From IMG/VR virus record IMGVR_UViG_3300020448_000011, positions 1 through 57,231 of that record: DNA of 57,231 nucleotides; one strand, given 5' to 3'. A model generated the notes under the pieces. That model saw nothing but the letters and a program-made list of their open reading frames with translations. It was not told the DNA's origin and did not search any database. Made by a program: the position numbers and the translations under genes. The number at the start of each line of letters is the position of its first letter. Positions within the stretch are counted from its first letter, which is position 1. This document shows positions 13,901 to 33,747 of the stretch, piece by piece. The stretch comes from a virus.

Positions 13901-16900
13901 AATACTAACTCAGGAGCACCTTATGATGCTTTTATTGCTTCTATTGACACTAATGGTAACTTTGCAATCAAGAGAAAACTTGCTTCTCCGAATAAATCTG
14001 AAAAAGTTACTGATCTTCTAATCAATGGAAATGATGTATATGCTTCTTTAGAAGTTGCAGCAAATAATTCTACTACCGATATTGATGTTGCAGTTGCTAA
14101 GATTACTTTTGGTACAACTGCTATTACTGTAGACTGGATTAACCAGTATGCAAATAGTCTATACTCTATGTTAAACTCAAGTATTTCGATTGATGAGTTT
14201 AATGAGATTTATATTACTTGTGGTCTAAGATCTAAAGCAGATAACACAACTAGAGATAGTTGGTGGATTGGTAAGATAGACACTACAGGTGCTCTTATTT
14301 GGAACTACAGATATGTCGCTCCAGGTAGAGAACTCACTATGGCAGCAACATCTGCTATTGACATTTTTGGTGATTTAAACGTAGCATTTACAAGAATAGA
14401 CAATACAAACACATTAACAACTATTGATACAGTTAAGATTGGTTATGATGGTAAAATTAAAAATCATACAACAAATCAATCTACTGCAAATAAGATTGAA
14501 GGACTTACTGTTCATTCTATAGATGTTGATAACTCTGGTGATGTTCATGCTGTAGGTCAGACTCAGTGGAACAGAAATGAGTTCTTGTTCCCATTTACTG
14601 CAGGTTCAACTGCTGATACTACTACCGCATATACATTAACATCTACATCAACTAGTAACTCTATTACATATGCAGATAACGTTGCTAAGATCAATGGATA
14701 TCAAACAGGACAAACATCTTGGACACAAGCAAATCTTCAGATTACTTCTGCTCAACTAGGTACTAAACTTGATAGTGATTTCACTATCGAGATGATGATA
14801 TACAAAGATTCTACTGTAACTTCTGTATCACCTACACAACAAACATTGATTGCTATTGGTGATGCTGAGGTAGCAACTGGTGGTCTTTGGTTATACTACG
14901 ATATATCAGGAGGTAAACTAGAACTTGCCATAACAAATAGTTCTACTAAACTTAACTCCGCATCTGGAGCAGCACAATCTGCATTAAGTAACATGTATGC
15001 TGATAATACATGGCAGTGGATTGGATTAAAGAAAGAAGGAAATGTATATACTGTTTTTGTTAATGGTATACAAGTTATACAGAGCACTATTGCAGGTACA
15101 AGTTTAGGTAGTAAAGATCTTTACATCGGACAGATTCCTGGTAGAAATGGTACAATAGGAAACTTTAGAGCAAATGAACAGGGACAGTTCTTTGTTGATA
15201 ATCTAAGATTAAGAAATAGAGCAGTTACACCAACTGTACCAAGTGATGTTAGTGCATTACCTACAGTAGGTGCATTTGGATTTGCATATAGTTGGACTGA
15301 TACAGCATGGTTTACTACTAATAATAATCGTTATGATCTTATTGATTTTGAAGGATTTGCACTAAAATCTGACAAAAATGCAGATGCATCAAGACTCGGT
15401 GCTATTACCACAGGAACTAATACTAGTATAGGATTTACTAGAACTGCAGTTAGTCCTGTAACTGGTAGTGCACTCACAATACAAAATACTGGTTATACAT
15501 TATCTGAAGCAGGATTCCAATCATTAGACTTTGACGATGCTGCAATAAGCATGAGCGAAGGTACACAGACACTTACATACACACAGGATATATGGAGTTC
15601 TAGAACTGCTACAGTTCCTTCACCTGGATCACAAAAACTTAGTGTATCTGCTGTTGTTAAAGACAGATACTTCTTTAAGGTAACACCAACCATCAAGATT
15701 GATAATGTACAGAAGTTAACTATAAATCAGTCATTCCAGTTTAGTATTGGTACAAAACTACGCCTTAATAATGCAGCAGGTACATTTGTAAATAGCGGTT
15801 ACATTGTTAGAAGAGATCTTGAGAATAATCAGGTATATCTTGCTGTAAACAATAACTCATGGACTGATGACTTAAATACTGGTCAACTTGTTACTGAACA
15901 GTTTAGTGAACAGTCAACTTATGGTATTGTAGGACCTATACCTAATGATATCAATGTCATAGAGGGATATACTTTTGCAACAATCAATAATACAACACCT
16001 GGAACTTTTAATATAGATCTTAATGATTTTAACCTTGATGGCACCACATCAACTGGTTCTGGTAACTTAGATAGTTTTGCCAAGTTTAAAGTATTTGCAA
16101 CTGCAGATTACTCTGTAAGAATTGATGAAGTTTCTGGATCATCAGCATATATTGTTGGATCTGTTGTACAACTAACATCAAGTGATATATCATTCAATGC
16201 TGCATATAGCACAGTACAGATAACAAACCTTACTGGCGTACTCAAGATTACATTAGTTGCAAATCTTGACAAAATTTTACAAGTCACTGCAGTAGCGAAC
16301 AGTGATGAAGTGTATGTAATCACTAACACAAGTCATTATCTCTCAAGAGGAGATATGCTTTACATTGATGGTAACCCTAGCCAGACTGTAGGCAGTGTTG
16401 TGTATGATGAATATGATGGTGCATTCCCTGTAGATAGAGTAATCAGTCCGTTAGAGTTCGTATACAAATTAAAACAGAGTGCGGTAACAAGTCCTGCTAC
16501 ATCAGCATCTGCTGTCAGTGTATTTGTTAAATCACCTGTTTTAAAGATGTTCTATGGACATCAATACATCTTTGACCTTAGTCATTCATCTCTTGTTGGT
16601 GGTAACTTATCATTTGCAAAAGATAGTCTATACAAACTTGAATACTCATTTAACTCTATTGACAGAGTTGGAATACCAGGTTTAACAGGAGAAGGACAAC
16701 CAACTCCATCTGTAACACTTAAAGTTGATGAAAGTATTGTTACTAATATTTCTTATTACTTTGATCCTTCTAGAACTGGATCAGATTCACCTGTTGTTGC
16801 AGGAAGTTACTTAGACGTTGTTGATTCTCCATATAAAGGAAACTTTGAAATTAGTTCTATTGCAGGTGCTACTATCACTCGTGGTGCTGATATTATTAAG

Positions 16901-19900
16901 TATCCTCTACTCAATGAACCAGAAGGTGATGCAGATATTAACCAAACAACTTACGCAACTTCTTCACTAAAAGCAGTTGGATCAATCAGTGATGTTCGTA
17001 TTGTAAATCCAGGTGGTTTCTATACTAGGTTACCTGTTGTAACTAATATTCAATCTACAAGACAAATTGAAAGAGTACAGATTAATAATCCTGGAACTGA
17101 ATATGCAGTTGGAACCTATCAGAGTGTTCCTATTGGTGGTGATGGAGAAGGTGGATTTGTAGAAATTATAGTTGCCGATGGAACTGATGATGCAGGTGTA
17201 ACTATTCCAGGTCAAATAAACACAGTTACAGTTACATCTCCAGGTAAAAATTATACTACAGCAACCATAGACATTGAAGCAATCAGTGGTATATTGGGAT
17301 CTGGTTTGACTGGATCAGGTGCTGAGTTGGTAGTTGTTATACCTCCATTTGGCACAGGTGCATCTATCTTTACTAAAGGTGACAGTGTTGGTAAGATCAA
17401 GAAACTTAAGAATAATAACTTTGGTTATGACTATCCTCATGATTACACATTACGTCCTGAGATTACATTCCCAATCAATGCTCAGTTAACATCTACAAGT
17501 ATACTTGATAGCATTACAGTTACAGATCCAGGTACTGGATATTCACAAGCACCTGCTGTTGTTATTTCTGGAGGTGGTGGTAGTGGTGCTATTGCAGAGG
17601 CAACTATTAAGAATGGTAGATTAGATACCATCATTGTTAAAGATCCAGGTGCAGGTTATTCATCAACTCCTGCAGTCAACTTAAGATCATCATTCAACTA
17701 TGTTGTTAACCTTGATTTAGGATTACTACAGTTTGCTTTCCCACATGGTATCGCAAATGGATCTGAAATAACATTGAATGTTGTTGATACTGGTGAAGGA
17801 ACTGATTATCCATTATCCGCAGGTGCTGTTGGTAGATTGAATGGAAGCACCACTTATTATGCTATTACTGGTGCTGCAAACTCTCTAGAAAGTGATCAGT
17901 TAAAGATTGCTATTACTGCTGCTAACGCAAACTTAGGTGATGCACTATCATTTGTTAACGCAGGTACAGGTCGTCAACAAGTATTAACTGAATCATTTGG
18001 TGGTGCTGCCACAGCAAACGTTATTACATCTACATTCCTAGAGGGTGAACTTGTATATCAAGGTGATTCACTTGATACTTCCACTGCACAAGGTTATGTT
18101 TCAACTAATGCAGGTTGGCAGATAGGACCTAGAGTTCTTAAGATTGTAGATTACACTGGTGTATTTACACAAGGATCAAGAATCACTGGTGTGATTTCTA
18201 AGTCTTCTGGTATCATGTCTGATATTAAAGTTGCTACTGGTGTTCTAGAGATTGGTTCTATTACTAAAACTACTGGTCAATTTATTGATGATGTTGGTAA
18301 ACCATCTGAGATTATTCAAAAGATACAAGATAGTTACTATTATCAAGACTTCTCATACGCTGTTAAATCTGCTGTTTCTATTGGTGAATGGAAAGAGATT
18401 CTAATCAAGAATGTTCATCCTGCATCATTTAAAGTATTTGGTGAGTTAGACCTAAATGATTATGGTTTCATTCCTAATAAAGAAACCGCATTCCAGTTAA
18501 CTAAATCTGTTGAACTTGCTAGAGATGCGATTGTTCCTAATATCCAAAACTTTGCTCTTGTTGAACCTGTTTATTCTGAGTTTAATAATACTGAAGTTCT
18601 ATTCCGTCAAAAACGTCTTACTTCTTCTGAGAACATTCTAACTTCTGTTGTACAGAGATTAGATGATATATCAACTCAGTTTGATGGTGAGAAAATATCA
18701 TTCCCTCTAACTGTTGATGGTAACAACGTTGTTGCTAATGCTAACCAGTTAATGATTGTTCTTAATGGTGTTGTACAAACTCCAGGAACTGCATTTGAAC
18801 TTCAAGGTGATTCTATTGTATTCAGTGAACCACCACAACCTCCTGCAAGTATTAAGTATGTAAACGTTACTATATCTCAAGTTGCAACTAGAAGAATCAA
18901 GTTTGATAATATTAGTGGTATCTTCCCAAGCATAGGTATGGCACTAGTTGGTACAAGTTCTGGTTCAAGATTAACTGTAACATCTGTAGTCGGTAATGAT
19001 ATTTTCGGATTCATGTCACAAGGAACTCTGTTTATTGCAGGTGAACTAGCGACTGTAGGTGCAACTGGATTTGCTGCTAATATTGCTTCTCAAGCATCAG
19101 GTGGATTAAATGATGAGACATCTGGTCAATATTCAATACCTAATATTGGATTATTTGTATTTGGTGAAAATGTTTCTAACTTAACTGGTGACACTGCTAA
19201 AGTTGAACAAATAAACTTAGATGGTGCTACAACACCTCTTGCACAGTTACGTTATACTATTGGTGCTTCAACTACAACCATTGAGATGGTTAAGTACAAG
19301 ACTGACAACTCAACTGCTGATGAACCAGTTGATGCAGGTACATTCGTCGCAACTAAAAATTATCAAGTAGAATCAGAAATATTCTTAGTTAATAGTGTTG
19401 TACAAAATAATGATTCAACAACTCTATCTGTAACTAGAGCACAGAATGGTACAGCAGCAGTATCACATCAAGAAGATAATCCAATATACAGCACTGACAT
19501 CGTAGTTACAGATAAACTAACATTAAGTAAAACTGCAGGTACATATCAGTCTACACCTGGATTATTTGATATTCAGTTAAATGATTATATTGTTGGTGCA
19601 CAATCTGGTGTAGTTGCTTTAGTAACACAGACATCTGCTTATCAAGATCCTACAACTCAAGAGTTTATTGGACAGGTTAATATATCTGAAGGTTCATCAT
19701 TCTTTGGATTACTATTCAACAGAATCACATCTCAGACATATCCAAACGTTGTTCTTGATAACATTTCACAATCACAGATTGGTATAGTAAACTTTACTGA
19801 TAACAATACCGCATTTGATAGTAGTTTCCCTGCTAATGAACAGGTTAATAACTATGTGATTCCTTATGATAATTTAACTGGTACATTCCAAGAGAATGAA

Positions 19901-22900
19901 TATATCCGTAACTATAGAGTTGATTATGGTAATAATAATGGTGACTTTACTGCTACAGAAGGTGCGAGAATTAGAAAACTAACAATCACTGACAGAATAG
20001 GTGATGGTATATTCCAAACTGGTCAAGTTATAAGATCTAGAGATAGTAAAGCAGAAGTTGTTGGTTATAACCAAGCAAGAAATACAATCTATCTTGGTAA
20101 GATTGGTAGATCACAACGTGGTGGATTAGACTTTAACCCTCCAACATGGTATGGTGAAGCACAGATTGATACATCAACTAAGAAGTTTGGTCAAGGATCA
20201 TTATTATTAGGTAGAGCAAATCATACTCATACATTTGTAAGTGGTGTTGCTAACGCAATCCAAGCAGGTAACGGTGCTACATCTACTCATACTGCACAGG
20301 CAGGAACATCATATGATCCTGAGGCAGGAACATTAGTTATCAATATCGGAACTCATAGTTTGACAACAAGCAATACTGTGACTATTGCTGATGGAGGTTT
20401 GACATTTACATGTACTGCTGATAGTAATACAACAAATCATCCATATCCAAGATCTACTGACCCTGCATCTGGTACAGCATTATCAATATCTGCAGTGACC
20501 TCAGATACTATTACAGTCAGTGTTGGTGTTGCACAAGTTACACTAGATTACTTAAATGTAGATTCATCCAGTGACTTTGCATGGGGAACTGCTGCATTTA
20601 CTATAGAACTTTATGTTAAGGCAGCAGCAGCATCTATATCTGGTGTAGCAACTTTACTTGACTTTAGAACAACAGCAAATGATGTAGCAGGTCGTTTATA
20701 TACAAATGGTGGTCAAGTTCGTTATAACGTTAATAACTCTGATCTAGTAACATCTGGTGCTACTGTTCTTGCTACAGATACATGGACACATGTCGTTGTA
20801 CAGAAAACTTCTACTACTGTTAAAATATTCCTAGATGGTGTTGAGAGAGGAACTGGTACAGATAGTCAAAACTATGCTGCCAAACCACTAAGAGTTGGTG
20901 CAGATTATGCAGGAGCAAATGCATTCTTCGGACATATTGATGAACTAAGATTGAGTGCAGAAAGTCGTTATTCTACAATACCATTCACTCCTCAGAATGG
21001 AATGTTCCAAGGTGATGCTAATACAAAATTATTATGGCATTTTGATGGTGCTGATAAACAGGTATTCCTAGAAGACTGGTCTGGTGCACCTGACTTTACT
21101 ATCGATGAATATGTTAATAATGATGCTATCCGTGCAACTGCTAGATTGATTGGTGGTGTACATACATTTGTTTCTGCAACAACTAATGCAATCACTGTAT
21201 CTGGTTCAAATAACTATACACCAACTGCTGCTGATTACGATGCAACAAATGGTCTATTAGAACTTACAATCGGATCTCATAGTCATACAACATCTGATAC
21301 TGTTACGATTGCTGCTAACTCATTAACATTTACATGTACAAAAGATAATAATGCAACAAACCATACTTATCCAAGAGTAACAGATCCTTCTTATGGTAAA
21401 ACCCTTGCTATCACTGCTGTTACAGGAGATACAATCACAGTTAATGTAGGTGTTGCAAGTAGAGGATTTAATCAGAAAACACACAGATATATTAACGCTG
21501 CAGATAATATAATATTAAACTACGATTACATTGCTAGAGAGGCAGTGTATATCATGAAGGAACGTTATCCATTCTTTACTGTTATTGGTGGAGCAGTTAA
21601 CTGTGAAGATGATGTAAGAGATATTCTTAAGGCAATGGTTGAAGATCTTAGAAATGGATCTAACAGTCATAGTTGGGATGCTGCTGCATTATATGTCAAT
21701 AGAACTACTAATCCTATCACATTGTTACATGTATCAGATGATTTGAAAGAATCACTATACACATATGATATAGTAGAGAAGTTAGTAAGATTTGTTATTA
21801 ATAATGAACCATGGTCTACATTAGGTGATCATGGATTGACTCAGAAGTTTGATACTACTATTACTGAATCAAACTATCTTACACAGTCTGTAACTCAGTT
21901 TACTCCATCAACTGCAACTTACAATCCTGCTACTGGTGACATGGTTGTTACTAGCACTGGACATGGATTAACAAGTGATACAAATCTCACTGCATCTAAT
22001 GCAACTTATAATGCTGCTACTGGTATTTTAAATATTACCTCTAACAGTCATAATCTTGCAACTGGTGATAAGATTCAACTCGCTGATAACTCATTGACAT
22101 TTACATGTTCAATGGACAGCAATGCTACAAACCATACCTATCCAAGAGCAAAAGATCCTGCTGCTCAAGGTTGGCAAGAAGTTACAAGAGTTGATGCTAA
22201 TAACTTTACTATTGATGTTGGTAAGTCACCAATAGTAAACTATCAACCAACAACAGGAACAACTTATGATCCTGCTACTGGACTTCTTAAGATGTTCATT
22301 GGTGATCATAACTTAGCAGTTGGCACAAACATTAAGTTGACTGCTAATTCCTTAACATTTACTTGTGATTATAATGGTGATGGTCAGACAACTCAGAAGA
22401 CATATCCAAGAGCAAGTGGTGAAGATGGAACTGCAGGTGGAGCAAGTAATAATACTGGAACTCCTGACGCTGCATACAATACAGCATTAGCAATACTTGC
22501 TGATGGTGTATCATCTACTGCTACAGGTGCATCTTATAATCCTGCTGATGGCGTTTTAGTTATTACTCAAAACTCTCATGGATTTGTTGTAGGTGACAAG
22601 ATCAGGATTGCTGATAACTCACTATCCTTTACTTGTACTAAAGATGGCAACCATGAAACTAAATCATATCCTCGTTCAACAGATCCTTTCTCTGGCAGAT
22701 GGTTAAGGATTACAGCGAAGACAGACAATACATTCACAGTTAATGTTGGTCCTTCTTCTGCTGCTGATCAATATGTTCATACATTCGTATCTGCTTCAGC
22801 AAACGGTATTATCAAGCGAGATAATTCTATCACTGTCAATGTCGGCACCTCTTCGGACACTTCGACACACACATTCGTTTCTGCAACTTCAAATGCAATA

Positions 22901-25900
22901 ATAACAGGAGGTAACTACACACATGCATTCGTTTCTGCTACCACTAATGGCATCACTGTCTCTGGTGATTCTGTATTCCTTGCGGATGGTGCTGTCTCAT
23001 TCACTTGCTCCAAGGATGGTAATCAAAAGATTACAGCATATCCAAGAAAATCTGACCCTGCGTCTAAACAAGTTCTTAAAATCTCTGCCCATACGAACGA
23101 CACGTTCACGATCAACGTCGGCAAGTCTTCTGCTGATGACCAGTACTCTCACACATTCTCTAGTGCGGTAACTAATGGTATAACAAAATCTGAATACTCA
23201 ACACAAGATTGTCAAGATGTACAATCAACAGTAGCAAACCTATTTGATATCATTACTGATACATTGACATTTGCATCACAATCACCTGCTGTAGATCATC
23301 TTGCAACTGTAACTAAATCAGAACCTGCATATGAGTTTGTTGGTGCAACAATAAATGCGTTCTCTGAAGTTCCATTAACAGTTGATTATCATAATGGCAC
23401 AAATGATGTCATATACACAAATCAAATAGATACTGATGCTCGTGGTAGATTCCGTGATGCTGCTAACTTAATTCGTGCAAATAGAAGAGTTATCGTTGAT
23501 AAGGCAGCATATGATATGTTACAAAGATATCCTGCTCTTGCATTGGATATGCCTAGAAATGCTAATGGTACATCTACAGATGGTACATTACGTTGTAAGA
23601 CTGACTTAGGATTAATACTAGACGGATTAGCACAAGATATTGAAGACGGTGGTAATGATGGAATACTTACTGCTGTAGGTTTCTACATTGGTAACAATAG
23701 TGAGTTACGTTATATTCGTTTACAGGTTCATCAGTCTGCTTATGCACATGAAAGATTAGCATTCTATGCTAAACAAGCAGTTACAGGAGATCTAACTTAT
23801 GATAATACTGATGGTATTATTGTTGGTGATTGGGGTATAACAAATGATTCTGGTGGATGTGCTAACGTCAAGACTGCAATCGATACTCTTATTACATTAC
23901 TCAATGATATTATTGCTCCTACTTCTGCTGATTTTAATACTGCTGCTGACAGATTATACTTTAACAGAGAGTACATTAGAGAAGAGATAACTGGTCTAAT
24001 GACCACAGAGTTTACATATCTGTTGAACAATGTACAGTTCCAAGCATTCCAGTTTCCAGGTGGTGCATTAGGTGAATCAGCATTCCAACAATCTCTTGAA
24101 GATATAATCATTGGTGGAATATCTGACTTACAAACTGGTGGTAATGATAGTATTATTTTAGAGATTGAGAAGTTCCTTACTGCTGCTTTAGAATACAACT
24201 ATAGCACTAGTGGAGTTGAGCAGTTATTATTAGCAACAGTTTATGGTGTTGAACAACTTGAAACTATTGGATTGAAAGCAATAGAAAATTTACTATATGG
24301 AACTAATGAAGACACAGGTAGCACAGCAGGTGCATACAGTGCGTTACATACACAGAAAACTGGAGTTCGTGATTCATTATCACTAAGTGATGCTACATCA
24401 GTTAAAAATAGATGGAAAGAATTAATAGAGTTCGCAGTCAATATCCTTTCACCTGCTAGAAAAGTTGGTAGAAGTGCTTCTAAGAATATTCTTTATAATC
24501 AGAACTACTATCTACAAGAAATACAAACACAAACTCTTGCTCAGTTTGGTGCAGGTTCATGGACTTATGATTCATTTGTAACTGATATTGTTGAGGATGT
24601 TATACACGATCTTCAAACAACAAATATTAGAGATAATACAACTGCATATCAAATCACTATTCAAAGTGTAAGTGCAACTGACTTCCAAGTTGGAGAAGTT
24701 GTTAGATCTAATGTTGGAGGATATGCATCTGTATTAGAGTTTGATCCTGATACTAACCTCTTTGTTGTAGGTCCGTTTACAGGAACTGCATGGGTTGCAG
24801 GTAATACATTGACAGGTAAGACATCTGGTGCAACTGCTACTATTTCTAGTGGTGGAGTTGGTTCTGCATATACTTGGTATCTTAATGTTGGAAATACAAG
24901 AACTCTTGCTAATGCTAGAACAATAACATCTACAGTTGCAGGTCAGGTTGCAGGTACAAACCTCTGGACAAATCCAGAAGCATATGCAATCAACTGGACA
25001 CCTACAACTAACGTAACAATAACAGATAACGTTTCAACTCTTGCTCCTGATGAATCACAAACCGCAGAAGATGTAACACCTAATAATGGTCAGAATGGTC
25101 AGCATGAAATCAATAGAGATTACAGTCTAACTGCGTTTGAGACATTTGACTCTGGTACAACTACATTCGATAATAACACAGAAACATTCGATACTGGTGC
25201 TGTTGGATTAGATGAAACTCAAACATTTACATTCTCAGCATTTGCTAAAGAATCTGGGTCACAAGGAATCAGATTCCAAATGCAACTTGATCCAGGTGGT
25301 GCAGGTGAACAAAATGTATTCTTTGACCTTAATCTTACAGATGGTACTACAAGCACAGTCTTTACACCTCAAGGTGGTATTACTGCTCAAGCATTTGGTG
25401 CAATACCTCTTGGAAACGGTTGGTTTAGATGCTTCATTACTGCAACATTCTCCTTTGGATTTACAACTCTAAGATCCAAGTTCATCATTAAGAGTGGAAC
25501 TGGAAGTAGTGTTTGGACTGGTGATGGTTCTACTGGTATTCTTGTTTGGGGTGCTAAACTTACTAAGAATAATCTTGATCCATATCAAGCACAGAGTGGT
25601 AAATTATTCTATGCTGATACTGGATTTAATACTAAGAACTTTATTCTTGACTTACTAGAAACATATATGTTGGCATCTCTTGATGGTACACTTACAACTC
25701 CTGCCACAAACTCTGGTTTCTATTCATTCTATAGTAGCACTGCTGCATCAGACTACACTAAAGATTCTGTTGCTGCAGTCGTCAGATACTTGATAGGCAT
25801 TATTAGAACTCAGTTTACAGATGATACATCATACATACAACTTACAACAAATAGAAATATACAACTTCCAACTAAAGTATTCACTACTGGAAGAACTATA

Positions 25901-27862
25901 CCAGTTGCTATCAAAGGTGGAGCAAATAATGCTGATTATGTTTATGGTTTATTAAGTAACTCATATGCTGAGATTGAGAATATAACTTTAAATGAAGGTT
26001 TAGTTGTTCAAGTTTATTCAAGATTTAGAATAGACGGTAACATCACAGATGGTCCTTACACAATGAATGAAGTTGTTGCTAAACAGGGTGCTCCATCTGT
26101 AACTGGTGTTGTTTACGGATTCTTTGAAGATGAGAACTTTAAGTATCTTGATGTTAAGGTGACTGCAGGTCCTTGGGCAATATCAGATAACGTTGTTGGT
26201 GCAACTAACTCTACCACTGCTCAGATTAGTGCTATTGAAACTCGTGTTCATATCATTGATCTTAAGGGTGACTTTGTTGCTGACATTCCATTCAGAGGTT
26301 ATACATCTGGTGCAACTGCACAACCAACATCATTCTTGAAAGCACAGGCAGCAGTTACCGATAACACAGGTGGTAAACTTACTGTTGACACTGAATCATT
26401 ATTAGGAACATTTGAAACTACTGCTGTTGTATATCCAGAGTCTTCTAGACAATACATCGTGGTAAGTAAGTATGCAGGTCTTGATATTGGTGTTGGTGAT
26501 AGAATTGCATCGAGAGGATATAAGAGATTTGGTATTAATATTATCAGTAATCTTAACAACTTCTCAGTTGGTAATAGACTTTATAAGGTTGTATCTGGTG
26601 TTCAAGATTCTGCCACATACGGTATCATCACTGATGTAGATATTCCAAATAACTATGTTTACATGATTGAGTATCAAGGAACATTTACTCAGGGTGATCA
26701 AATAGGTGATTATGGTTTAGCAGCATCATTCCCAGTTGGATATGCTTCTATATCAACTATAGTTACAACTGCAGGTCAAGGTGCTGCTCTTGTACAAGAC
26801 GTTCGTGTTGATGGTATTAACAAGCGTCTATACTTAAGTGATGTTACAGGATCATTTGGTATCAGAGATGCTATCAAAGGACCTGATTCATACGGTGCTA
26901 TAATATTCTCGCAAGTTGATCTTAAGGCAAGAGTTAAGAGATCATTTAAAGGATTTGATGGAACTACAACAACGTTCCCACTCACTATTACAAACGGTAC
27001 TACATACCTCCCAGATCCCGCAGGACACCTCTTAATATTCATTAATGGTATATTACAACCACCAGGTGCAAGTAACGCATATACAGCGTTCTCCAACCAG
27101 ATTCAGTTTACTGAACCACCAGATTTGGGTGCATCATTTACTGGATTCTATATTGGTAAACTAAGACAGTTAGATGATATCTCATTCGAGTTTGACTCAT
27201 TGAGACAATCATTCAACTTGAAACGTAATGATGTGTTCTACTCCTTGACACTGACTGATGGTGTACAGTCTAGTGTGATAAGACCTGAGAACAATATTAT
27301 TTGTTCACTCAACGGTGTTATCCAAGAACCTGGAGTTGGTTTTGAGATTGTTGGTTCTAGAATCATCTTCTCTGAAGTTCCTAGATTTGGATCAACATTC
27401 GTTGCCTTCTCATACGTTGGTTCTGAAGCAGACGTTGACGCTGCTGAAGTTGTACCACCAATCGAGCCAGGTGACTTTATTGATATACAAGGTGAAACAT
27501 CAGATAGAGAAGTTGCTGTTATTGAATCATCAAACTCTCTAATCACATTTGATTATCTTGGATCTGTATTTGGTCAGAAAGCAACTGCAACTGCAGTTTT
27601 GACATCTGGATTTATTGATCAGGTTCAAGTTACTAACGGTGGTTCTGGATATACAACTAGACCAACTGTTAGAATAGACTCCATCTCAGGATTCGATGGA
27701 AACATCCGTGCACTAGTTGGTGTTGCAGGTGTTGAACTCAGTGCAACTGGTACTGGATATAAGAATCCTGCTATCAATGTTGAGACTACCGTACCTGATG
27801 ACTGGACTGCTCCAGACATATCAACTTACGGAGAGGAGTTGGTAGACCCCGAAACCCCATAA
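7952..27862 (+). CDS. gp7: Giant gp7-like baseplate wedge protein (6,636 aa)
   Basis: By position after gp6 and by its N-terminal pieces this is the gp7-type wedge initiator. T4 gp7 has 1,032 residues, so this is over six times longer. Domains by eye: N-terminal region 1-110; two 'FDG..FPLT...LNG' units (about 130-290); a run of Gly-rich GSGY repeats (307-627); the conserved gp7 helical block with YTEQFLPDVPELDYSKIDVR and FYSSKGTSFS (660-747); more GSGY repeats (1130-1360); a YHYH-like domain (IVGWAFDGNPIYGPY, about 1430-1530); a beta-propeller-like segment (1830-2217); a first LamG-like domain (2250-2427); GSGY units (3008-3247); a second, interrupted LamG (4063-4370); a distinct repeat family (4091-5080); helical modules (4513-4628, 5160-5563); a jelly-roll-like region (5669-5883); and further 'FDG' and GSGY units to the end. 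The frame is uninterrupted. Confidence 0.85.
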   Translation: MNINKVSQSIVSQSPDFIGSEYPLFNKFIEYYYKSQEKTGLGQNILNNFLQYLDIDKLDIGILDGQTTVVESVSATDDKIVVESVGPFLEKNGSILIGDEVIFYEDIDAAPSISLTPGISYEQVKLKWTTLANFINDFDGVKTQFPLTSQDSPVAPPSAQHLIVSLYGKILIPNTDYTVSGNKIVFTTAPRTKLPADGAETTYVYFLSGFIESTIYALDNLSGAFGDGKKQFTITRNGVSYEPQNEEYLNVIYDNRLLVPKVDYFIDKNQFIFKTAPLNGRFLSIHSIEAPIPSFGNGAIGFARVSDTGTLTSISSSAIGSGYRFEYPPQVAINTEVGSGAAATALVNGLKSITLLTGGKGYSTSNPPIVQVQAPTKSGSTQATISATVANGAVTELTITNSGSGYTFTPRITFIQPGGAKLGAPVITNGQVTSIPVTDGGFGYTTAPTVYIDEPTGTNPIRAALQANLSTEGKVTSITVLNAGQGYHDGAHQGHGGGAAPRVAIVDPVGAQVLETVVDGDGRVIRVDLLNGGSGFDDVPSVYIVDNRTNGGTGAAAVASIFNGQITDINVSAFGSGYSAANPPEIVIQSPPQAKASAEIGLNEVTGFAVTENGSGYRKAAFTGCARAASGITSYTEDGNAVFTKDTTAAAASIGTTVKCLDALFVKRLLDKYTEQFLPDVPELDYSKIDVRTSIKTVKDFYSSKGTSFSIAYLFKLLYGESVSVTYPKDQIIKPSAATWSIDTILRATKVSGDAVNIRDGLITQDADIADPNVQAASALVENYISIKTSDVEIFELVLSEETITGTFTVPYKTKLAEPLNTTDSIITVDSTVGWPERNGEFVIGSGSRTELVQYKEKSLNQFIECTRSANGVVEDWDSATQVSSNFTVFINKGTLQEVVMNIVGIVDAQQTTLTDTGSYYLPGDKLTVSKLGGSSLDPHLTTWLYNVKKLISVTEITFGGVNNQFATVTCANNHGLLVGDQVTIYGANPIIYNGTFLVTSRDTNTIFQYQLPQPATVTPQGNILVSVDLNKGKSDSTAVFNAIGPYTTNVQNSFFNTQYAYLASTGIPNYKIGPFPGSALLPGNQRKLNRFPIVSTTISTKNSINPGPIGTWVNGVSIWSYKSTKKKTFGAVTSVSIANAGSDYDAASPPVLTIAGGGGTGATASVTVNGSVSEITVTNGGSGFIASPLVSIVGGGGSGAAATAIITKGVVSRILINSGGTGYTSQPSITIVGGGGTGAQATASVRGPIQAVTVGSGGQSYTSTPSVTLSSGSGAVAQAIVNNGRIISIAIISAGSGYTTAPEITIQGEGFGAVARATIDTDGENAGRVTSITIVNRGISYVQGTTLINLNSVGQDASFTANVFQWTYNLQKSTTFDGAKGSVFEGYNNQYGGEYAHLSNPQTLRYILGDNLFENTAGLIKEKEDGLQHSPIVGWAFDGNPIYGPYAYSDPTDQSSSIAKLNTSYRLRTNLVYDVDSNPNPVRVAGPLLTEEVAGNFVEDYEYVFGLGALDQYNGRFCKTPEYPDGRYCYFVTIDSTEDGNPLFPYVLGPDFNSVVDTWNLSADAIQQNIPTGVVRYRDPYENVDIDVERAPNASTNAITLENGDVLLFEVEDEDRSGVIEQAEIDDPDQVFEESPLQLFDYFPTVKLDSKVDIEVETTTKFEDASVTGFTVENPGVNYQVNDRLIFDNTDTDGSGVSARVSRIAGETVEAYGFENISGNNFGKLTTVNPHNLQPGDSVFVDYTPVMANTNKTYVVRQFKGIEEIVINQTGSGYNTDIPPTIIIDGNGTGGELEAVVTSVGSIENVNIINSGWGYTSNPRVILSHPQVFKKADYYIAKFSNAQYVKVNDVYVNSDKEVYLCGKTKDSSGNAVAFLTKLSASGVKEWDKTLELVSGQEESEFIRLFVDGHDIWVVGENKPNSSILSQYNPDIVLAKYVEASNGLSATLSFQKGYAGISGSTRADHITCIKKYSDTRFIIGGFTNTNSGAPYDAFIASIDTNGNFAIKRKLASPNKSEKVTDLLINGNDVYASLEVAANNSTTDIDVAVAKITFGTTAITVDWINQYANSLYSMLNSSISIDEFNEIYITCGLRSKADNTTRDSWWIGKIDTTGALIWNYRYVAPGRELTMAATSAIDIFGDLNVAFTRIDNTNTLTTIDTVKIGYDGKIKNHTTNQSTANKIEGLTVHSIDVDNSGDVHAVGQTQWNRNEFLFPFTAGSTADTTTAYTLTSTSTSNSITYADNVAKINGYQTGQTSWTQANLQITSAQLGTKLDSDFTIEMMIYKDSTVTSVSPTQQTLIAIGDAEVATGGLWLYYDISGGKLELAITNSSTKLNSASGAAQSALSNMYADNTWQWIGLKKEGNVYTVFVNGIQVIQSTIAGTSLGSKDLYIGQIPGRNGTIGNFRANEQGQFFVDNLRLRNRAVTPTVPSDVSALPTVGAFGFAYSWTDTAWFTTNNNRYDLIDFEGFALKSDKNADASRLGAITTGTNTSIGFTRTAVSPVTGSALTIQNTGYTLSEAGFQSLDFDDAAISMSEGTQTLTYTQDIWSSRTATVPSPGSQKLSVSAVVKDRYFFKVTPTIKIDNVQKLTINQSFQFSIGTKLRLNNAAGTFVNSGYIVRRDLENNQVYLAVNNNSWTDDLNTGQLVTEQFSEQSTYGIVGPIPNDINVIEGYTFATINNTTPGTFNIDLNDFNLDGTTSTGSGNLDSFAKFKVFATADYSVRIDEVSGSSAYIVGSVVQLTSSDISFNAAYSTVQITNLTGVLKITLVANLDKILQVTAVANSDEVYVITNTSHYLSRGDMLYIDGNPSQTVGSVVYDEYDGAFPVDRVISPLEFVYKLKQSAVTSPATSASAVSVFVKSPVLKMFYGHQYIFDLSHSSLVGGNLSFAKDSLYKLEYSFNSIDRVGIPGLTGEGQPTPSVTLKVDESIVTNISYYFDPSRTGSDSPVVAGSYLDVVDSPYKGNFEISSIAGATITRGADIIKYPLLNEPEGDADINQTTYATSSLKAVGSISDVRIVNPGGFYTRLPVVTNIQSTRQIERVQINNPGTEYAVGTYQSVPIGGDGEGGFVEIIVADGTDDAGVTIPGQINTVTVTSPGKNYTTATIDIEAISGILGSGLTGSGAELVVVIPPFGTGASIFTKGDSVGKIKKLKNNNFGYDYPHDYTLRPEITFPINAQLTSTSILDSITVTDPGTGYSQAPAVVISGGGGSGAIAEATIKNGRLDTIIVKDPGAGYSSTPAVNLRSSFNYVVNLDLGLLQFAFPHGIANGSEITLNVVDTGEGTDYPLSAGAVGRLNGSTTYYAITGAANSLESDQLKIAITAANANLGDALSFVNAGTGRQQVLTESFGGAATANVITSTFLEGELVYQGDSLDTSTAQGYVSTNAGWQIGPRVLKIVDYTGVFTQGSRITGVISKSSGIMSDIKVATGVLEIGSITKTTGQFIDDVGKPSEIIQKIQDSYYYQDFSYAVKSAVSIGEWKEILIKNVHPASFKVFGELDLNDYGFIPNKETAFQLTKSVELARDAIVPNIQNFALVEPVYSEFNNTEVLFRQKRLTSSENILTSVVQRLDDISTQFDGEKISFPLTVDGNNVVANANQLMIVLNGVVQTPGTAFELQGDSIVFSEPPQPPASIKYVNVTISQVATRRIKFDNISGIFPSIGMALVGTSSGSRLTVTSVVGNDIFGFMSQGTLFIAGELATVGATGFAANIASQASGGLNDETSGQYSIPNIGLFVFGENVSNLTGDTAKVEQINLDGATTPLAQLRYTIGASTTTIEMVKYKTDNSTADEPVDAGTFVATKNYQVESEIFLVNSVVQNNDSTTLSVTRAQNGTAAVSHQEDNPIYSTDIVVTDKLTLSKTAGTYQSTPGLFDIQLNDYIVGAQSGVVALVTQTSAYQDPTTQEFIGQVNISEGSSFFGLLFNRITSQTYPNVVLDNISQSQIGIVNFTDNNTAFDSSFPANEQVNNYVIPYDNLTGTFQENEYIRNYRVDYGNNNGDFTATEGARIRKLTITDRIGDGIFQTGQVIRSRDSKAEVVGYNQARNTIYLGKIGRSQRGGLDFNPPTWYGEAQIDTSTKKFGQGSLLLGRANHTHTFVSGVANAIQAGNGATSTHTAQAGTSYDPEAGTLVINIGTHSLTTSNTVTIADGGLTFTCTADSNTTNHPYPRSTDPASGTALSISAVTSDTITVSVGVAQVTLDYLNVDSSSDFAWGTAAFTIELYVKAAAASISGVATLLDFRTTANDVAGRLYTNGGQVRYNVNNSDLVTSGATVLATDTWTHVVVQKTSTTVKIFLDGVERGTGTDSQNYAAKPLRVGADYAGANAFFGHIDELRLSAESRYSTIPFTPQNGMFQGDANTKLLWHFDGADKQVFLEDWSGAPDFTIDEYVNNDAIRATARLIGGVHTFVSATTNAITVSGSNNYTPTAADYDATNGLLELTIGSHSHTTSDTVTIAANSLTFTCTKDNNATNHTYPRVTDPSYGKTLAITAVTGDTITVNVGVASRGFNQKTHRYINAADNIILNYDYIAREAVYIMKERYPFFTVIGGAVNCEDDVRDILKAMVEDLRNGSNSHSWDAAALYVNRTTNPITLLHVSDDLKESLYTYDIVEKLVRFVINNEPWSTLGDHGLTQKFDTTITESNYLTQSVTQFTPSTATYNPATGDMVVTSTGHGLTSDTNLTASNATYNAATGILNITSNSHNLATGDKIQLADNSLTFTCSMDSNATNHTYPRAKDPAAQGWQEVTRVDANNFTIDVGKSPIVNYQPTTGTTYDPATGLLKMFIGDHNLAVGTNIKLTANSLTFTCDYNGDGQTTQKTYPRASGEDGTAGGASNNTGTPDAAYNTALAILADGVSSTATGASYNPADGVLVITQNSHGFVVGDKIRIADNSLSFTCTKDGNHETKSYPRSTDPFSGRWLRITAKTDNTFTVNVGPSSAADQYVHTFVSASANGIIKRDNSITVNVGTSSDTSTHTFVSATSNAIITGGNYTHAFVSATTNGITVSGDSVFLADGAVSFTCSKDGNQKITAYPRKSDPASKQVLKISAHTNDTFTINVGKSSADDQYSHTFSSAVTNGITKSEYSTQDCQDVQSTVANLFDIITDTLTFASQSPAVDHLATVTKSEPAYEFVGATINAFSEVPLTVDYHNGTNDVIYTNQIDTDARGRFRDAANLIRANRRVIVDKAAYDMLQRYPALALDMPRNANGTSTDGTLRCKTDLGLILDGLAQDIEDGGNDGILTAVGFYIGNNSELRYIRLQVHQSAYAHERLAFYAKQAVTGDLTYDNTDGIIVGDWGITNDSGGCANVKTAIDTLITLLNDIIAPTSADFNTAADRLYFNREYIREEITGLMTTEFTYLLNNVQFQAFQFPGGALGESAFQQSLEDIIIGGISDLQTGGNDSIILEIEKFLTAALEYNYSTSGVEQLLLATVYGVEQLETIGLKAIENLLYGTNEDTGSTAGAYSALHTQKTGVRDSLSLSDATSVKNRWKELIEFAVNILSPARKVGRSASKNILYNQNYYLQEIQTQTLAQFGAGSWTYDSFVTDIVEDVIHDLQTTNIRDNTTAYQITIQSVSATDFQVGEVVRSNVGGYASVLEFDPDTNLFVVGPFTGTAWVAGNTLTGKTSGATATISSGGVGSAYTWYLNVGNTRTLANARTITSTVAGQVAGTNLWTNPEAYAINWTPTTNVTITDNVSTLAPDESQTAEDVTPNNGQNGQHEINRDYSLTAFETFDSGTTTFDNNTETFDTGAVGLDETQTFTFSAFAKESGSQGIRFQMQLDPGGAGEQNVFFDLNLTDGTTSTVFTPQGGITAQAFGAIPLGNGWFRCFITATFSFGFTTLRSKFIIKSGTGSSVWTGDGSTGILVWGAKLTKNNLDPYQAQSGKLFYADTGFNTKNFILDLLETYMLASLDGTLTTPATNSGFYSFYSSTAASDYTKDSVAAVVRYLIGIIRTQFTDDTSYIQLTTNRNIQLPTKVFTTGRTIPVAIKGGANNADYVYGLLSNSYAEIENITLNEGLVVQVYSRFRIDGNITDGPYTMNEVVAKQGAPSVTGVVYGFFEDENFKYLDVKVTAGPWAISDNVVGATNSTTAQISAIETRVHIIDLKGDFVADIPFRGYTSGATAQPTSFLKAQAAVTDNTGGKLTVDTESLLGTFETTAVVYPESSRQYIVVSKYAGLDIGVGDRIASRGYKRFGINIISNLNNFSVGNRLYKVVSGVQDSATYGIITDVDIPNNYVYMIEYQGTFTQGDQIGDYGLAASFPVGYASISTIVTTAGQGAALVQDVRVDGINKRLYLSDVTGSFGIRDAIKGPDSYGAIIFSQVDLKARVKRSFKGFDGTTTTFPLTITNGTTYLPDPAGHLLIFINGILQPPGASNAYTAFSNQIQFTEPPDLGASFTGFYIGKLRQLDDISFEFDSLRQSFNLKRNDVFYSLTLTDGVQSSVIRPENNIICSLNGVIQEPGVGFEIVGSRIIFSEVPRFGSTFVAFSYVGSEADVDAAEVVPPIEPGDFIDIQGETSDREVAVIESSNSLITFDYLGSVFGQKATATAVLTSGFIDQVQVTNGGSGYTTRPTVRIDSISGFDGNIRALVGVAGVELSATGTGYKNPAINVETTVPDDWTAPDISTYGEELVDPETP
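8873..9830 (+). repeat. GSGY-type coding repeats, cluster A in gp7
   Basis: About seven degenerate units of 35-50 residues with the pattern 'V-T-x-x-x-V-x-x-x-G-S-G-Y-x-x-x-P-x-V-x-I', such as VTELTITNSGSGYTFTPRI and VTSIPVTDGGFGYTTAPTV. They form part of the large wedge protein and probably fold as stacked beta hairpins. Related units recur at 11340-12030, 13225-13440, 16975-17690 and 27600-27790 of the same gene. Confidence 0.7.
11340..12030 (+). repeat. GSGY-type coding repeats, cluster B in gp7
   Basis: Six units close enough that DNA similarity shows too: each combines a 'GGGGTGA(T/Q)A(T/S)' turn with a strand and 'GG(S/T)G(Y/F)', as in VSRILINSGGTGYTSQPSI. The units are more alike than in cluster A, suggesting more recent duplication. 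Confidence 0.7.
20222..23190 (+). repeat. LTFTC...YPR...DP repeat family in gp7
   Basis: Five or six copies of a unit of roughly 75-105 residues. Each has 'YxPxTGxLxxxIGxHxL', then '(T/A)DNSLTFTC', a charged turn, 'YPRxxDP', then 'ITVNVG' and 'HTFVSATTNAI'. Copies begin near 20222, 21160, 21895, 22240, 22525 and 22850. The first copy lies inside a LamG-like domain, and a helical module separates later ones. I do not recognise the family. Confidence 0.65.
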
Positions 27863-27884: not shown

Positions 27885-29153
27885 ATGGCCAAGCAAACGA
27901 TAGGTCTTGGATCTGCTGCTAACGACAACACGGGTGATACCCTGAGAGTCGGAGGCGATAAGGTCAATGACAACTTTAATGAAATATATACTGCCCTAGG
28001 AAATGGTACGACACTTACTGTCGATACCACAAACCCTGCTGTGGGACAAGTATTAAGATATAACGGTGCCACATTCCTGCCTTCAGATTACACTAACCTG
28101 ACTGCAGCATTAGATGTAAATGGAAACTCTATAGTTTCTTCAAGTAATGGTAATATAGCGGTAGCAACAAATGGATCAGGAGATTTAACATTATCAGCAG
28201 GTGGCGTAACATCAATATTCAAAGGTACAAAGGCAGCACCAAACGCTGCAGAAAGTGGAACAATTATATTCCCAACATCAATAACATACGATAATGAATA
28301 TAGCACACTAGCAGGAGCACCTGCAGTTGGAACTTATAGAGGTTACTTCTTTACAGTCAGTGGTGATGATAATCCATATGTAAATATGAATATCACTGCA
28401 GGTGGTGTAGGTAACTCTCAAGTAAAACTATTAACTGAAAGATCAAGCATTAATATGCTGTTTGACGTTGATACAACTACAACACCTCCTAATAATGATC
28501 AAGTTTTAAAGTGGAACTCTAGTAGTAGCAAATGGTTACCTGCTGATGATGCTGCAGGTATTGGTAGTATAAACGTATTCGCATCTGTTGCAGGTGACAC
28601 AGGATCTACAACTGCCAACAGTCAGACAGATACACTGACTATTGCAGGTGGTACTAATATTACTACTGCAGTTTCTGGAGACACTGTAACGGTGAACTTC
28701 TCTGGAACTTTGACAACAACACTTGCTGCTCTAACTGATACAAATACAGCAGGTCTAACTCAAGGTGATATGTTGTATTGGTCAGGATCTGAGTGGATTC
28801 CTACTCCTACAACTGGACCTATCATATGGTATGAGATAGGTGCACCTGTAGAGAATGCTAGTAATGACTTCTTGATCAATGGACCTGGTCTTCCTGCAGG
28901 GGAAAACCGTGACCCAACGTTATATGTGCATAGAGGATTTACTTATGCATTTGACAATAGTGTTGAAGGTGGTGGACACCCATTTAGGATTCAATCAACA
29001 CAGGGTTTATCTGGCACACCATATACTACAGGACAAACTGGTAGTATAAGTTCAATCTTATATTGGACTGTACCTTTTGATGCTCCATCAACTCTTTATT
29101 ATCAGTGTACACTCCATGCTGCAATGCAAGGAACTATTAACGTAGTATCATAA
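27885..29153 (+). CDS. Virion protein with C-terminal cupredoxin-like domain
   Basis: A 422-residue protein. The opening IGLGSAANDNTGDTLRVGG with DKVNDNFNEIYTALG is a short N-terminal module common in phage baseplate and fibre proteins, likely an attachment motif. The middle is a Ser/Thr/Gly-rich beta region with two 'LRYNG/LKWNSSSSKWLP' type units. Residues about 315-422 look like a cupredoxin fold: strand, 'FAFDNSVEGGGHPFRI' (His365), 'YWTVPFDAPSTLYYQC' and the C-x2-H-x2-M cluster Cys408, His411, Met414. Those four residues match the ligand set and spacing of type 1 copper proteins such as amicyanin. No ribosome binding site is evident, as for several genes here. The next gene follows after 4 bases. 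The role is probably a baseplate or fibre-attachment protein. Confidence 0.75.
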   Translation: MAKQTIGLGSAANDNTGDTLRVGGDKVNDNFNEIYTALGNGTTLTVDTTNPAVGQVLRYNGATFLPSDYTNLTAALDVNGNSIVSSSNGNIAVATNGSGDLTLSAGGVTSIFKGTKAAPNAAESGTIIFPTSITYDNEYSTLAGAPAVGTYRGYFFTVSGDDNPYVNMNITAGGVGNSQVKLLTERSSINMLFDVDTTTTPPNNDQVLKWNSSSSKWLPADDAAGIGSINVFASVAGDTGSTTANSQTDTLTIAGGTNITTAVSGDTVTVNFSGTLTTTLAALTDTNTAGLTQGDMLYWSGSEWIPTPTTGPIIWYEIGAPVENASNDFLINGPGLPAGENRDPTLYVHRGFTYAFDNSVEGGGHPFRIQSTQGLSGTPYTTGQTGSISSILYWTVPFDAPSTLYYQCTLHAAMQGTINVVS

Positions 29154-29157
29154 CTAA

Positions 29158-32100
29158 ATGGCAAGAGACGTTCCAGGAACAGGCGCAGTCATTGAACCAA
29201 TCTTTGATGAAGTATTTGGAGTTCGTGCTGTAAAAGTATTAAATGGAGGATCAGGTTATAATCAATCTGATCCACCTAGACTTACTGTGACTGGATGTGG
29301 TACACCTGATGTAGAGGCATTATTATATCCAATCATTGATGATGGTGCAGGGCAGATCATCCATGTAAGAGTTTTAAATAGAGGAAGAGGATATGATCCG
29401 TTACGTTTGCAGATCATTCCTGAGCAAGAAACACCAAACGTAGTAAATTCATTTGATTTTAATAGAATATGGCAAGGTCATCCTAACTCAGCAACAACAG
29501 GAACTTTTGCTACATCTGGTACAGTAAAGACTGACAGATTAACAATAGTATCTGATAATCATCCTAAACCATCTCAAATATTTCCAACTGAGTATCAACC
29601 AGGTGGAGCAACTACAATTCTTGATAGAACTTTTAATCAAGAGTTTGTATTTCGTGGTGGTAAAGATGTTCCAAATCCAGGTACAAGATCATTTTCAACT
29701 AATCAAGCAGTTGGTATATTAGCAAATGGTGGTCTATTACACACTGCTGATTGGGGTACAGCAGGTGGTGCACCCACAAACTTACCTATTGATGTTATAA
29801 AATATAACTACATCAAAAATACAAACCTATATGATGCAATATTAGATAATCAAGTATATTATTATCATACAAGTAAAACTCTAGAAGAGTTCAAACTTAC
29901 AAATGGTGTATTTGAATGGGGACTTCAAGAACAGTTTACATGGACTATTAAGACTGAACTTGATAATGTAATGTTACTAGTTGATTCTGTAGATGAAACT
30001 CTAGGTAATGTAGAAGTAGGTAGAATAGTAGATGAGGTGGCAGGGACTGCAAGAGGAACTATTGCGAAGGTTGTTAGAAATAATCTAAATGTTATAACTA
30101 GAATATACTTGAGAGAAACTAGTGGTGGTGCTTTTCAAGATCAAGATCTATGTCTAGGTTCAAATGGATTTAAGTTTCGAGTGGCAAGTGATCCTATCAC
30201 TTTCCCTAATGGTCTGTTTTATATCGAGTTTGGTGCTGATGCACATGAGTTTGGTAATTTTACGCCAGGTCAATACTACCTTGCTCCAGAAAATATTAAA
30301 GTTCAGAAAAACTACCTCATAATATGGGATCAATCAGATAGTTCAAATAGTTCACATCCTATGCAGTTCTCTACAACTGCTGATGGTACACTAAATGGCG
30401 GAACATTATATTACAATAGTACAGGTTCTTCTGCTACTACATCTACTGTTAATATTGCAGTAACGATAGGTGTAGATAGTGTTGCAGGACAATCTACGGG
30501 TGTATATTATTTTGATGGCGTTGAAAAACCTGCCAACTATGCTTTAGTAAGAGGTTCAACTTATATCTTTGATCAGTCAGATAATAGTAACGAAGTATAT
30601 GGTGGAGCAAATCATCCATTAATGTTTAGTACTGGACCTGGTGGAGATCACGGTGGTCATGGTCATTATATGAATGGTGTTACTTATAAGTTGGATGGAT
30701 CTGTTGTTTCTATGGCAGCATATGTTAGCGGATTTAATGCTGCTACAAGTCGCACAGTTACATGGACTGTACCTACCAGTGCACCTTCAACAATGTATTA
30801 TTGGTGTCATTATCATACAGGACAAGGTAATAGTTTCACTGTTACTTCTCCTCCTGCTCATGCTGCAGATTATGAAAATTCATTAAGACCAATATTCATA
30901 ATGAATGCTGATGAGACACAAAAAATATATTATTATTGTGGTAATCATCGTTATATGTCAGGATATTCTGGCGATGAAGGTTACATGATTCTTGATACCT
31001 CAACAGAAGAGGAGGAAGAAGAAGAAAATATGAATACATACTATGTCGAGGATTTTTATGGTACTGCAGCAGCAGGAACATTAGATTATTCTAGACATAC
31101 TGATGGTCACTCCAAGATTATTGGGATGTCCTTTGATGGATATCCAATATACGGACCATGGGGATATAATTCTTCTGGCACAGCAGCAAGGGAAACTTCT
31201 AGTTATAGATTAAGAACTACTGCTGAGTTACAAGGTGCTAGACCGATTGTAAACACTGCAGGTACAGAAACTTATACAGTTACTATTGCAGGTGGTCAGT
31301 TTACATTCAATGGATCATCACCTGAGTTTTTGAATCTGAAAAGAGGAAGAACGTATATATTCAACCAAGACGACGCAAGTAATACAGGGTCGAATCATAT
31401 ACTTATTTCTACGCAAACAGATGGTTGGCATTCAAATAATCCAGTAGTTATTGGTTTAGAATCAGTCTTGTATTCGGGTCAAGGCATATCATATCAGATC
31501 AATGGCAATAACGTTACATATCAACAATATCTGAGTTTATTTAATGGAGCAACAACCAGAGGCATAACATTTACAGTTCCTGTAGATGCACCTAGCGTCC
31601 TATATCTTTTCGGATACATTTCCTCAGGTCTTGGTCTAAGACTTGTTAACGATGGTTATATTCTTGGAGACCTCACATCAGATTACATTTATGATTCTAG
31701 TGTAGGAACTTTAGATGAATATAATGGTAAGTTTGGAGTAACGCCAGAGTATCCTAATGGAACTTATGCATACTATATGACAGAGAATGCTATGGGTATG
31801 CCTACATATCCATATGCCATAGGTCCCAAGTATTATGGCGTTCCTTTGTTTGAAGGAGATACAGTTCCTGCACAACCTACTGTATTCCCATCACTAGCAA
31901 CAGGTGATGTTGTATTAAACCCTAACGGATCAGTATCTTATGTTAAGATGACTGTAAAGGGTGATAACTATTTCGGTACTGCAAAAGCAAAGATTCTTGG
32001 TGGAGAAGGATCTGGTGCATTAGGAACTCCTACAGTTCAAACTGTTACTGGTCTATCTCTACTCAATCAAGGTAGAAGTTATGCAACTCCTCCAACACTC

Positions 32101-33747
32101 ATCTTTGAAGGTGGTGGTGGACAGGGTGCACAAGGTGCTGCTGAGATTGATACACTTGGTAAGGTAACATCTGTTAACATTGTAAATCCAGGTGAGTTTT
32201 ATCAAGAAGAACCTTATATTCTTATATCTGGTGGTGGAGGTATAGGTGCAAAGGCAGAGGCAACTATAGCACAGGGTGCTATCACAGGTATTAATATCAC
32301 CGATCCAGGTGAAGGATATACCTCAGTTCCAAATATTATATTCACAAAACTTGTAAATCTTAAACGTAAAACTAGAGCAAGACAGGCATTTAACTCATCT
32401 GCGATATACCTCACAGGTCTTGTCAAAGATGTTACCGCAAATGATGCAAACATATATGTTGACTCTACAGATGCATATCCTGGATCTGGTCAAGTAATAA
32501 TTAATAAAGAAACGATAACTTATACCTCCAAAACAGCAGGTAGATTTAGTGGTCTAACTCGTGGTGTTAACTTCAACTATGATCAGAGAGTCATACTTGA
32601 TGCTAACCAGAACGATACTACTACTGGCATATCAAACTATAAGTTCAATGTTGGTGACAGAGTTATACGTCGTGTTGAGAGTGCAAATAATAAAGTTGCT
32701 AAAGTATATGACTGGAACTCTTCAACCAGAGAACTTCTTGTTACATTTGAAGTTGATGAACTAGCATTTATCGATGGTGGTAGAGCAGCAACTGAAGATG
32801 CTATCGTTCAGTTTGATGCAGGTGTTGCTGCTTCTTCTGGTGCAGGTATTTTACCACACACTGTTATTGATTCTGTAGGAAATAGTATTACAACATTAAC
32901 AGATCCTATCGGAGTGTTAACAGATAAAGATTTTGAAGATGATGATGAAAACTCTGGAGCAGGAGATGGTATACCTGATCTAATCAATACTAACACAGAC
33001 TTTGCTGGCCAGATTAGTCTTGATGGTGGTATATACAGTTCACTTTATGGTATTGAAGAAACTCAAGGTGGTACAAACACAACTCTATTCCAAGTTGGTG
33101 ATAGCATTAAAGATGGTGATATACCATTTAAGTATGCAACAGTCACCTCTGCAGGTGGATTGAGTGATGGTGCAGCACACAGTGCAGTGATAAATATCAC
33201 ATTAGACATATCAGCAGGTGCAACTACAAACTATCAAACGAATGAAGTTGTAACTGGTGCTATTTCTGGAGTTCAAGCAACCGTTGTTTCGTGGAATAAT
33301 CAAACTGGTGTATTACAAGTCAAAGATATAGTTCCATATAACACAAATAATGTTAACATTGGTATCGGTGGATTACTCTATGAGTTCTCCCAAAATAGCA
33401 GTGTGATTGATTTTATTATTGCAAATCCTGGAACTAACTATACTGGAGTCCCAACAATAGCAATAGAAAATACAGGAGATATACAGGCAACTGGTACTGT
33501 AGTTATGACGACTGCAGGAGACCAAGTTGCATCAATCACCATTAATAATGGAGGGTATGGAATCCCTCAAACAGTAGATGGCACCTACGCTTTACACCCA
33601 ACTGTAACATTTACAAATGCTAGTGGAGATACTACAGGTGCAAATGCTGCAGCACAAGCAGTATTAGGTGGAGAGAATCTTGTAGGTAACGGTGGAGCAA
33701 CTTACAGGATTAAGAGCATTGAATATCTTACAACTGTTCGCTCGTAA
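29158..33747 (+). CDS. Large virion protein with nested cupredoxin-like and YHYH domains
   Basis: A 1,529-residue protein starting with two Gly-rich repeat units ([16 protein letters not shown]). Around residues 380-610 there are two cupredoxin-like domains, one apparently inside the other. The outer starts at [17 protein letters not shown] (His400) and ends with [10 protein letters not shown] (Cys594, His597, Met600); the inner has His486 and CHYH at 550-553. A YHYH-like domain follows ([20 protein letters not shown], from about 650). It seems split by a third cupredoxin-like fold (about 702-835) that has lost its Cys and Met, before its second half [17 protein letters not shown]. After that come GSGY units (about 925-1060), a '[11 protein letters not shown]...TRG' unit (about 1085-1140) and Gly-rich strands to the end. 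It lies between gp7 and gp8 and is presumably a baseplate or peripheral fibre component. Confidence 0.75.

Follow-up and report, generated by a model that had tools for sequence, protein, structure and literature searches.

The ORF at positions 27885-29153 (plus strand) of the window, i.e. the whole stretch of 57,231 nucleotides that was analysed, belongs to a T4-like cyanophage and encodes its gp9-like baseplate/tail-fibre connector, whose C-terminal domain is predicted, from its sequence and from its modelled fold, to bind copper. The joint reading that we favour, with a probability of roughly 0.6, is that of a type 1 copper cupredoxin facing the tail fibres, belonging to a family of virion-surface modules and having a structural or adhesion role. 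Here we infer copper as the metal, and its loading, from the set of candidate ligands, and surface exposure and a fibre-related role from the location and context of the protein only.

The gp9-like protein and the predicted fold of its C-terminal domain

The 422-aa protein matches over its whole length phrog_677 (E 7.6e-189), labelled 'baseplate wedge tail fiber protein connector', while residues 3-64 match PF07880 (T4_gp9_10_N, E 5.6e-10). Genes for other baseplate wedge proteins, a gp10-like protein, head closure and the sheath are found around it. Full-length relatives in GenBank come from Synechococcus and Prochlorococcus myoviruses; conversely, GenBank relatives from Vibrio, Escherichia and Aeromonas phages align only with the first ~40 residues, so the cupredoxin-like C-terminus lies outside the general T4 gp9 plan. 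Both gp9 and gp10 of T4 were matched by phmmer, the alignment with T4 gp9 being confined to residues 3-62; the C-terminal fibre-binding domain of T4 gp9 was not found in the window protein, since this alignment stops at residue 62. Between a baseplate gene (5894-7945) and the gp9-like gene, a single open frame at 7952-27862 encodes a 6636-aa giant structural protein with many repeated glycine-rich units. Toward the end of the window, positions 56412-57140 hold a bilin-reductase-like gene (phrog_7278, 'ferredoxin oxidoreductase'), probably a bilin reductase of the pcyA/pebS type, as in cyanophages.

Residues 311-422 (28815-29150, plus strand) were modelled with AlphaFold2 from a 90-row alignment, giving an all-strand beta-sandwich with cupredoxin topology (pLDDT 96.4, pTM 0.88). 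In the model, using domain numbering, His55 precedes a strand by two residues, while a strand is closed by Cys98, and the loop that follows it holds both His101 and Met104; these predicted positions fit a cupredoxin site. The best Foldseek matches in the PDB are rusticyanin, the three-domain copper nitrite reductase (CuNIR), multicopper oxidases and amicyanin, with E values down to 1.6e-5; all matches with E <= 0.001 are copper cupredoxins, including CuNIR, or multicopper oxidases, and their TM-scores range from 0.38 to 0.56. A profile search of PDB sequences also retrieved nearly exclusively CuNIR, plastocyanin, rusticyanin, auracyanin and amicyanin (best E 6e-5). When the ligand His and the ligand loop were masked, the profile recovered no cupredoxins in the PDB; thus, what links the domain to cupredoxins is the ligand loop as regards sequence and the AlphaFold2 model as regards fold. 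The fold evidence, itself from a model, is largely separate from the motif, though the motif letters were part of the input of both AlphaFold2 and Foldseek.

The cupredoxin-type reading of this region, put forward in the initial annotation, is therefore supported by the predicted fold. The range then assigned to the domain, 28887-29150 (residues 335-422), was correct as to its location, but the modelled domain begins slightly earlier. No Pfam or NCBIfam model scores above its cut-off for the domain, and PF00127 (plastocyanin/azurin) has no match in the gp9-like protein or in the whole window; a distant relative of the domain reaches 13.9 bits with PF00127, the cut-off being 21.2.

Candidate ligands in gp9 homologues and in the gp10-like protein

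The predicted copper ligands are His365 (28977-28979), Cys408 (29106-29108), His411 (29115-29117) and, in the axial position, Met414 (29124-29126), all on the plus strand. These residues had been named in the initial annotation and their codons are located in the ORF as claimed; likewise, the His-to-Cys distance is 43 and the C-x2-H-x2-M spacing, read directly from the sequence, equals the length of the amicyanin loop. The four residues are invariant in 56/56 distinct gp9 orthologue domains, a set gathered with search patterns that do not cover the ligand site, and thus free of motif bias, in which many fold residues are also invariant because the sequences are close to each other. Since the protein has no cysteine besides Cys408 and only three histidines, namely His349, His365 and His411, this invariance makes the ligand set more than a chance assembly. 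A single cysteine per protein was found in 73 of 80 orthologues, which excludes a disulfide role. A thioester or disulfide function of Cys408 was set aside, as the residue is a lone cysteine and the one preceding it is not conserved in distant members.

More distant phage proteins, twelve of which were read by eye, preserve the His and the C-x2-H-x2-M loop in 11 cases. The His is followed by Pro, with the loop intact, in the P-SSM2 tail spike, the P-SCSP2 podovirus, the tail fibre of Pelagibacter phage Baldr and S-TIM66, as well as in Bellamy, Sf-CH5, S-SCSM1, marine virus AG-345-O18, ACG-2014d, S-SSM7 and P-TIM68; the exception is S-SKS1, with C-x4-H-x2-M. Among 250 distinct full-length domains the ligand set is HCHM in 245, HCHQ in 4 and NAQM in 1, counts that are somewhat favourable because some patterns of the distant scans touched the ligands; HCHM retention reaches down to ~30% identity. 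Each ligand position is kept in 28 of 29 representatives that share less than 60% identity, a level equal to that of the best-conserved columns. Conservation of the four residues in homologues, proposed as a check in the initial annotation, is thus found both in the orthologues and across the wider family. The NAQM set belongs to a viral domain (L150:2447-2773) where H, C and H are replaced jointly by N, A and Q and Met is retained.

Further copies of the domain are present in the adjoining gp10-like baseplate wedge protein (29158-33747, plus strand; 1529 aa; phrog_708, 2406 bits), which also carries a YHYH domain (PF14240, E 8.5e-18). All copies are encoded on the plus strand. An outer cupredoxin-like domain is split in two halves: the first, at 30268-30435 (approximate borders), contains the putative ligand His400 (30355-30357), and the second, at 30856-31008, contains C594-x2-H597-x2-M600 (30937-30957). 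The H, C, H and M of this outer domain show no substitution across the aligned gp10 sequences (24/24). Between the halves a nested cupredoxin-like domain (30436-30855, approximate borders, E 7.4e-24) has a candidate site made of H (30613-30615), C (30805-30807), H (30814-30816) and a Gln in place of Met (30823-30825). This insertion of ~140 aa is found in the window and in L003, L005, L006 and L007, and, judging by length, in L022; it is absent from the other 19 aligned gp10 relatives. The nested copy with Gln for Met was seen only in the gp10 of the window and its closest relatives. The AlphaFold2 model of the nested region, built on a shallow alignment, has a pLDDT of 41, so the domain-in-domain reading of gp10 is drawn from sequence comparison only.

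A third copy (31246-31635, E 4.3e-9) is fold-like and has no C-x2-H-x2-M loop, which is missing in 21/21 distinct homologous copies that retain the fold signature. This loopless copy, set against the invariance of the outer domain, argues that what maintains the ligands is a site rather than the fold. Across the compared sequences the pattern appears to be all-or-none, the ligands being either lost jointly, as in L150 and in the third gp10 copy, or retained complete, which argues in the same direction. The gp10-like protein would thus hold a second complete candidate site and a third, nested one with Gln; neither these two further sites nor the widespread domain family had been noted in the initial annotation.

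Distribution, proposed role and alternative explanations

The cupredoxin-like domain was detected in 338 of 50,697 phage records, nearly all aquatic by name. Among podo- and myoviruses that infect Prochlorococcus, Synechococcus, Pelagibacter or Methylophilales it is met again in tail fibres, and related phage domains are located in tail fibres and tail spikes; a second branch comprises Pelagibacter and Methylophilales phages as well as additional fibres and virion proteins of cyanophages. Each scan of IMG/VR returned dozens to hundreds of matching contigs, and Foldseek against viral models gave 62 matches at E <= 0.001. Structural matches in BFVD include A0A481Z6J5, A0A481Z7Q7 and A0A481YWX9, 'beta-sandwich proteins' of Pithovirus and Marseillevirus.

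In marine plankton genomes the domain occurs in proteins with a lipobox-like start, for example from SAR86, SAR92, OM182 and marine Group II archaea; a lipobox-like start was recognized, by a crude regular expression, in 28 of 85 cellular-genome domains, and some other matches in plankton assemblies are likely phage sequence. Lipoprotein-like proteins of this kind from SAR86, marine Group II archaea and SAR92 (L354, L360, L368, L384, L347, L346, L381) sometimes have the domain behind collagen-like repeats, in the archaea, or behind another domain; those tested have no Pfam or NCBIfam coverage. In a quick tree, a phage tail clade that includes gp9 (34 rows, SH-aLRT 97) is placed apart from a mixed clade of phage and cell sequences. 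These data point to a cupredoxin family of phages and plankton surface lipoproteins that lies outside Pfam and NCBIfam coverage.

The occurrence of His, Cys, His and Met in this order and with this spacing is the type 1 copper set. In the mechanism that we propose, the C-terminal domain of gp9 would bind one copper ion in such a site, with a loop of amicyanin length, and would sit, by analogy with T4 gp9, at that end of the baseplate protein which points outwards, to the fibres. The family may represent virion-surface cupredoxin modules of the tail fibres and baseplates of aquatic phages, common also to surface lipoproteins of marine plankton, and a copper-stabilised structural or adhesion module would shape fibre attachment or the receptor-facing surface, rather than act as an electron carrier. 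The ligands are retained in hundreds of tail proteins from aquatic phages, and also in surface lipoproteins of marine plankton; therefore, these virions probably carry copper on their tails.

The alternative that survives best, albeit rather unlikely, is that the cupredoxin fold has been kept as a receptor- or fibre-binding sandwich, which in the virion would hold either no metal or one other than copper (Zn, Ni). The third gp10 copy is indeed a case of the fold persisting without the ligands, and the ligand evidence does not single out copper. However, it is the ligands, beyond the fold, that are kept to ~30% identity and lost jointly, the lone Cys has no other evident role, and the residues conform to the type 1 set also in their order and spacing.

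It is harder to credit that a displayed, copper-loaded domain takes advantage of copper uptake by the host or of a copper protein of the host as its partner, as a copper analogue of the iron-based 'Ferrojan/Trojan Horse' proposed for tail fibres. The same domain is found in surface proteins that carry a lipobox, among others in SAR86, SAR92 and marine Group II archaea, it is located in tail fibres of several phage types, and an iron counterpart has been argued for T4 and for marine phages with HxH motifs (PMC11705849); yet the phage tail clade that holds gp9 does not contain any cell-derived row. Similarly speculative is a broader proposal, in which the baseplates and tail fibres of aquatic phages would bear type 1 copper domains in arrays (the gp9/gp10 pair described here has up to three candidate sites), in common with the surface cupredoxin lipoproteins of the same plankton, and would engage cells through the bound copper or through mimicry of those lipoproteins, with copper availability setting phage adsorption in the ocean.

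Type 1 copper sites are usually electron carriers, and a redox-active centre acting on the host at adsorption might be envisaged, considering that the hosts are photosynthetic and that cyanophages have, among their metabolic genes, petE for a soluble plastocyanin (PMC3037559). This is very improbable, however, for a domain that is built into an extracellular structural protein, that occurs also in phages of the non-photosynthetic hosts Pelagibacter and Methylophilales, and for which no redox partner was seen. Finally, chance resemblance of unrelated residues, conceivable for a short motif with three of its four residues within seven positions, can practically be dismissed in view of the invariance in homologues collected without the motif, the predicted cupredoxin fold and the extra complete site or sites in gp10.

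If the predicted type 1 copper domains do hold the metal, many virions of cyanophages would be copper particles, cyanophage virions being very abundant in the ocean, and copper loading could then be tested as a variable in adsorption, in the stability of virions and in marine copper speciation. To date, discussion of metals on phage tails has centred mainly on iron in HxH motifs. In open-access full text, no paper was found that pairs 'cupredoxin' with 'tail fiber', although automatic database labels may exist, and 'cupredoxin' together with 'cyanophage' returned only work related to Borgs.

Comparison with known systems

The gp9 domain shares with amicyanin, plastocyanin and rusticyanin the order His...Cys-His-Met and a beta-sandwich, which is predicted in gp9 and in which the model has the Cys terminate a strand and the His and Met follow in the next loop. 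Differently from these blue copper proteins, it is fused to a phage baseplate protein, has a TM-score of ~0.5 at best and no match with PF00127, and its copper is predicted. The C-x2-H-x2-M loop is common to amicyanin; the latter is the redox partner of methylamine dehydrogenase, a role that is not expected in a phage. A weak match was also obtained with the At5g54830-like domain PF25489 (E 0.007), which involves the C-terminal half including the C-x2-H-x2-M loop and remains under the curated cut-off (16.8 vs 27 bits).

With T4 gp9 and gp10 (PF07880) the window protein has in common ~60 N-terminal residues and the gene order beside gp10; T4-type, Vibrio and Aeromonas relatives share only this N-terminus and are devoid of the cupredoxin C-terminus.

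Other metal-binding proteins are already associated with phages. The plastocyanin gene petE, carried by cyanophages as an auxiliary metabolic gene (PMC3037559), also encodes a copper protein, but a soluble one from a separate gene, and the window has no PF00127 match. The HxH iron sites proposed in T4 gp37 and in marine phage fibres (PMC11705849) likewise place a metal on a phage tail protein, but motif, fold and metal differ; no HxH motif is present in the window gp9, which has three His only. The YHYH domain (PF14240), for which a Zn site has been predicted in phage tail proteins (PMC7824862), is found in the adjoining gp10-like protein, as a domain separate from the cupredoxin-like ones and with a different proposed metal site.
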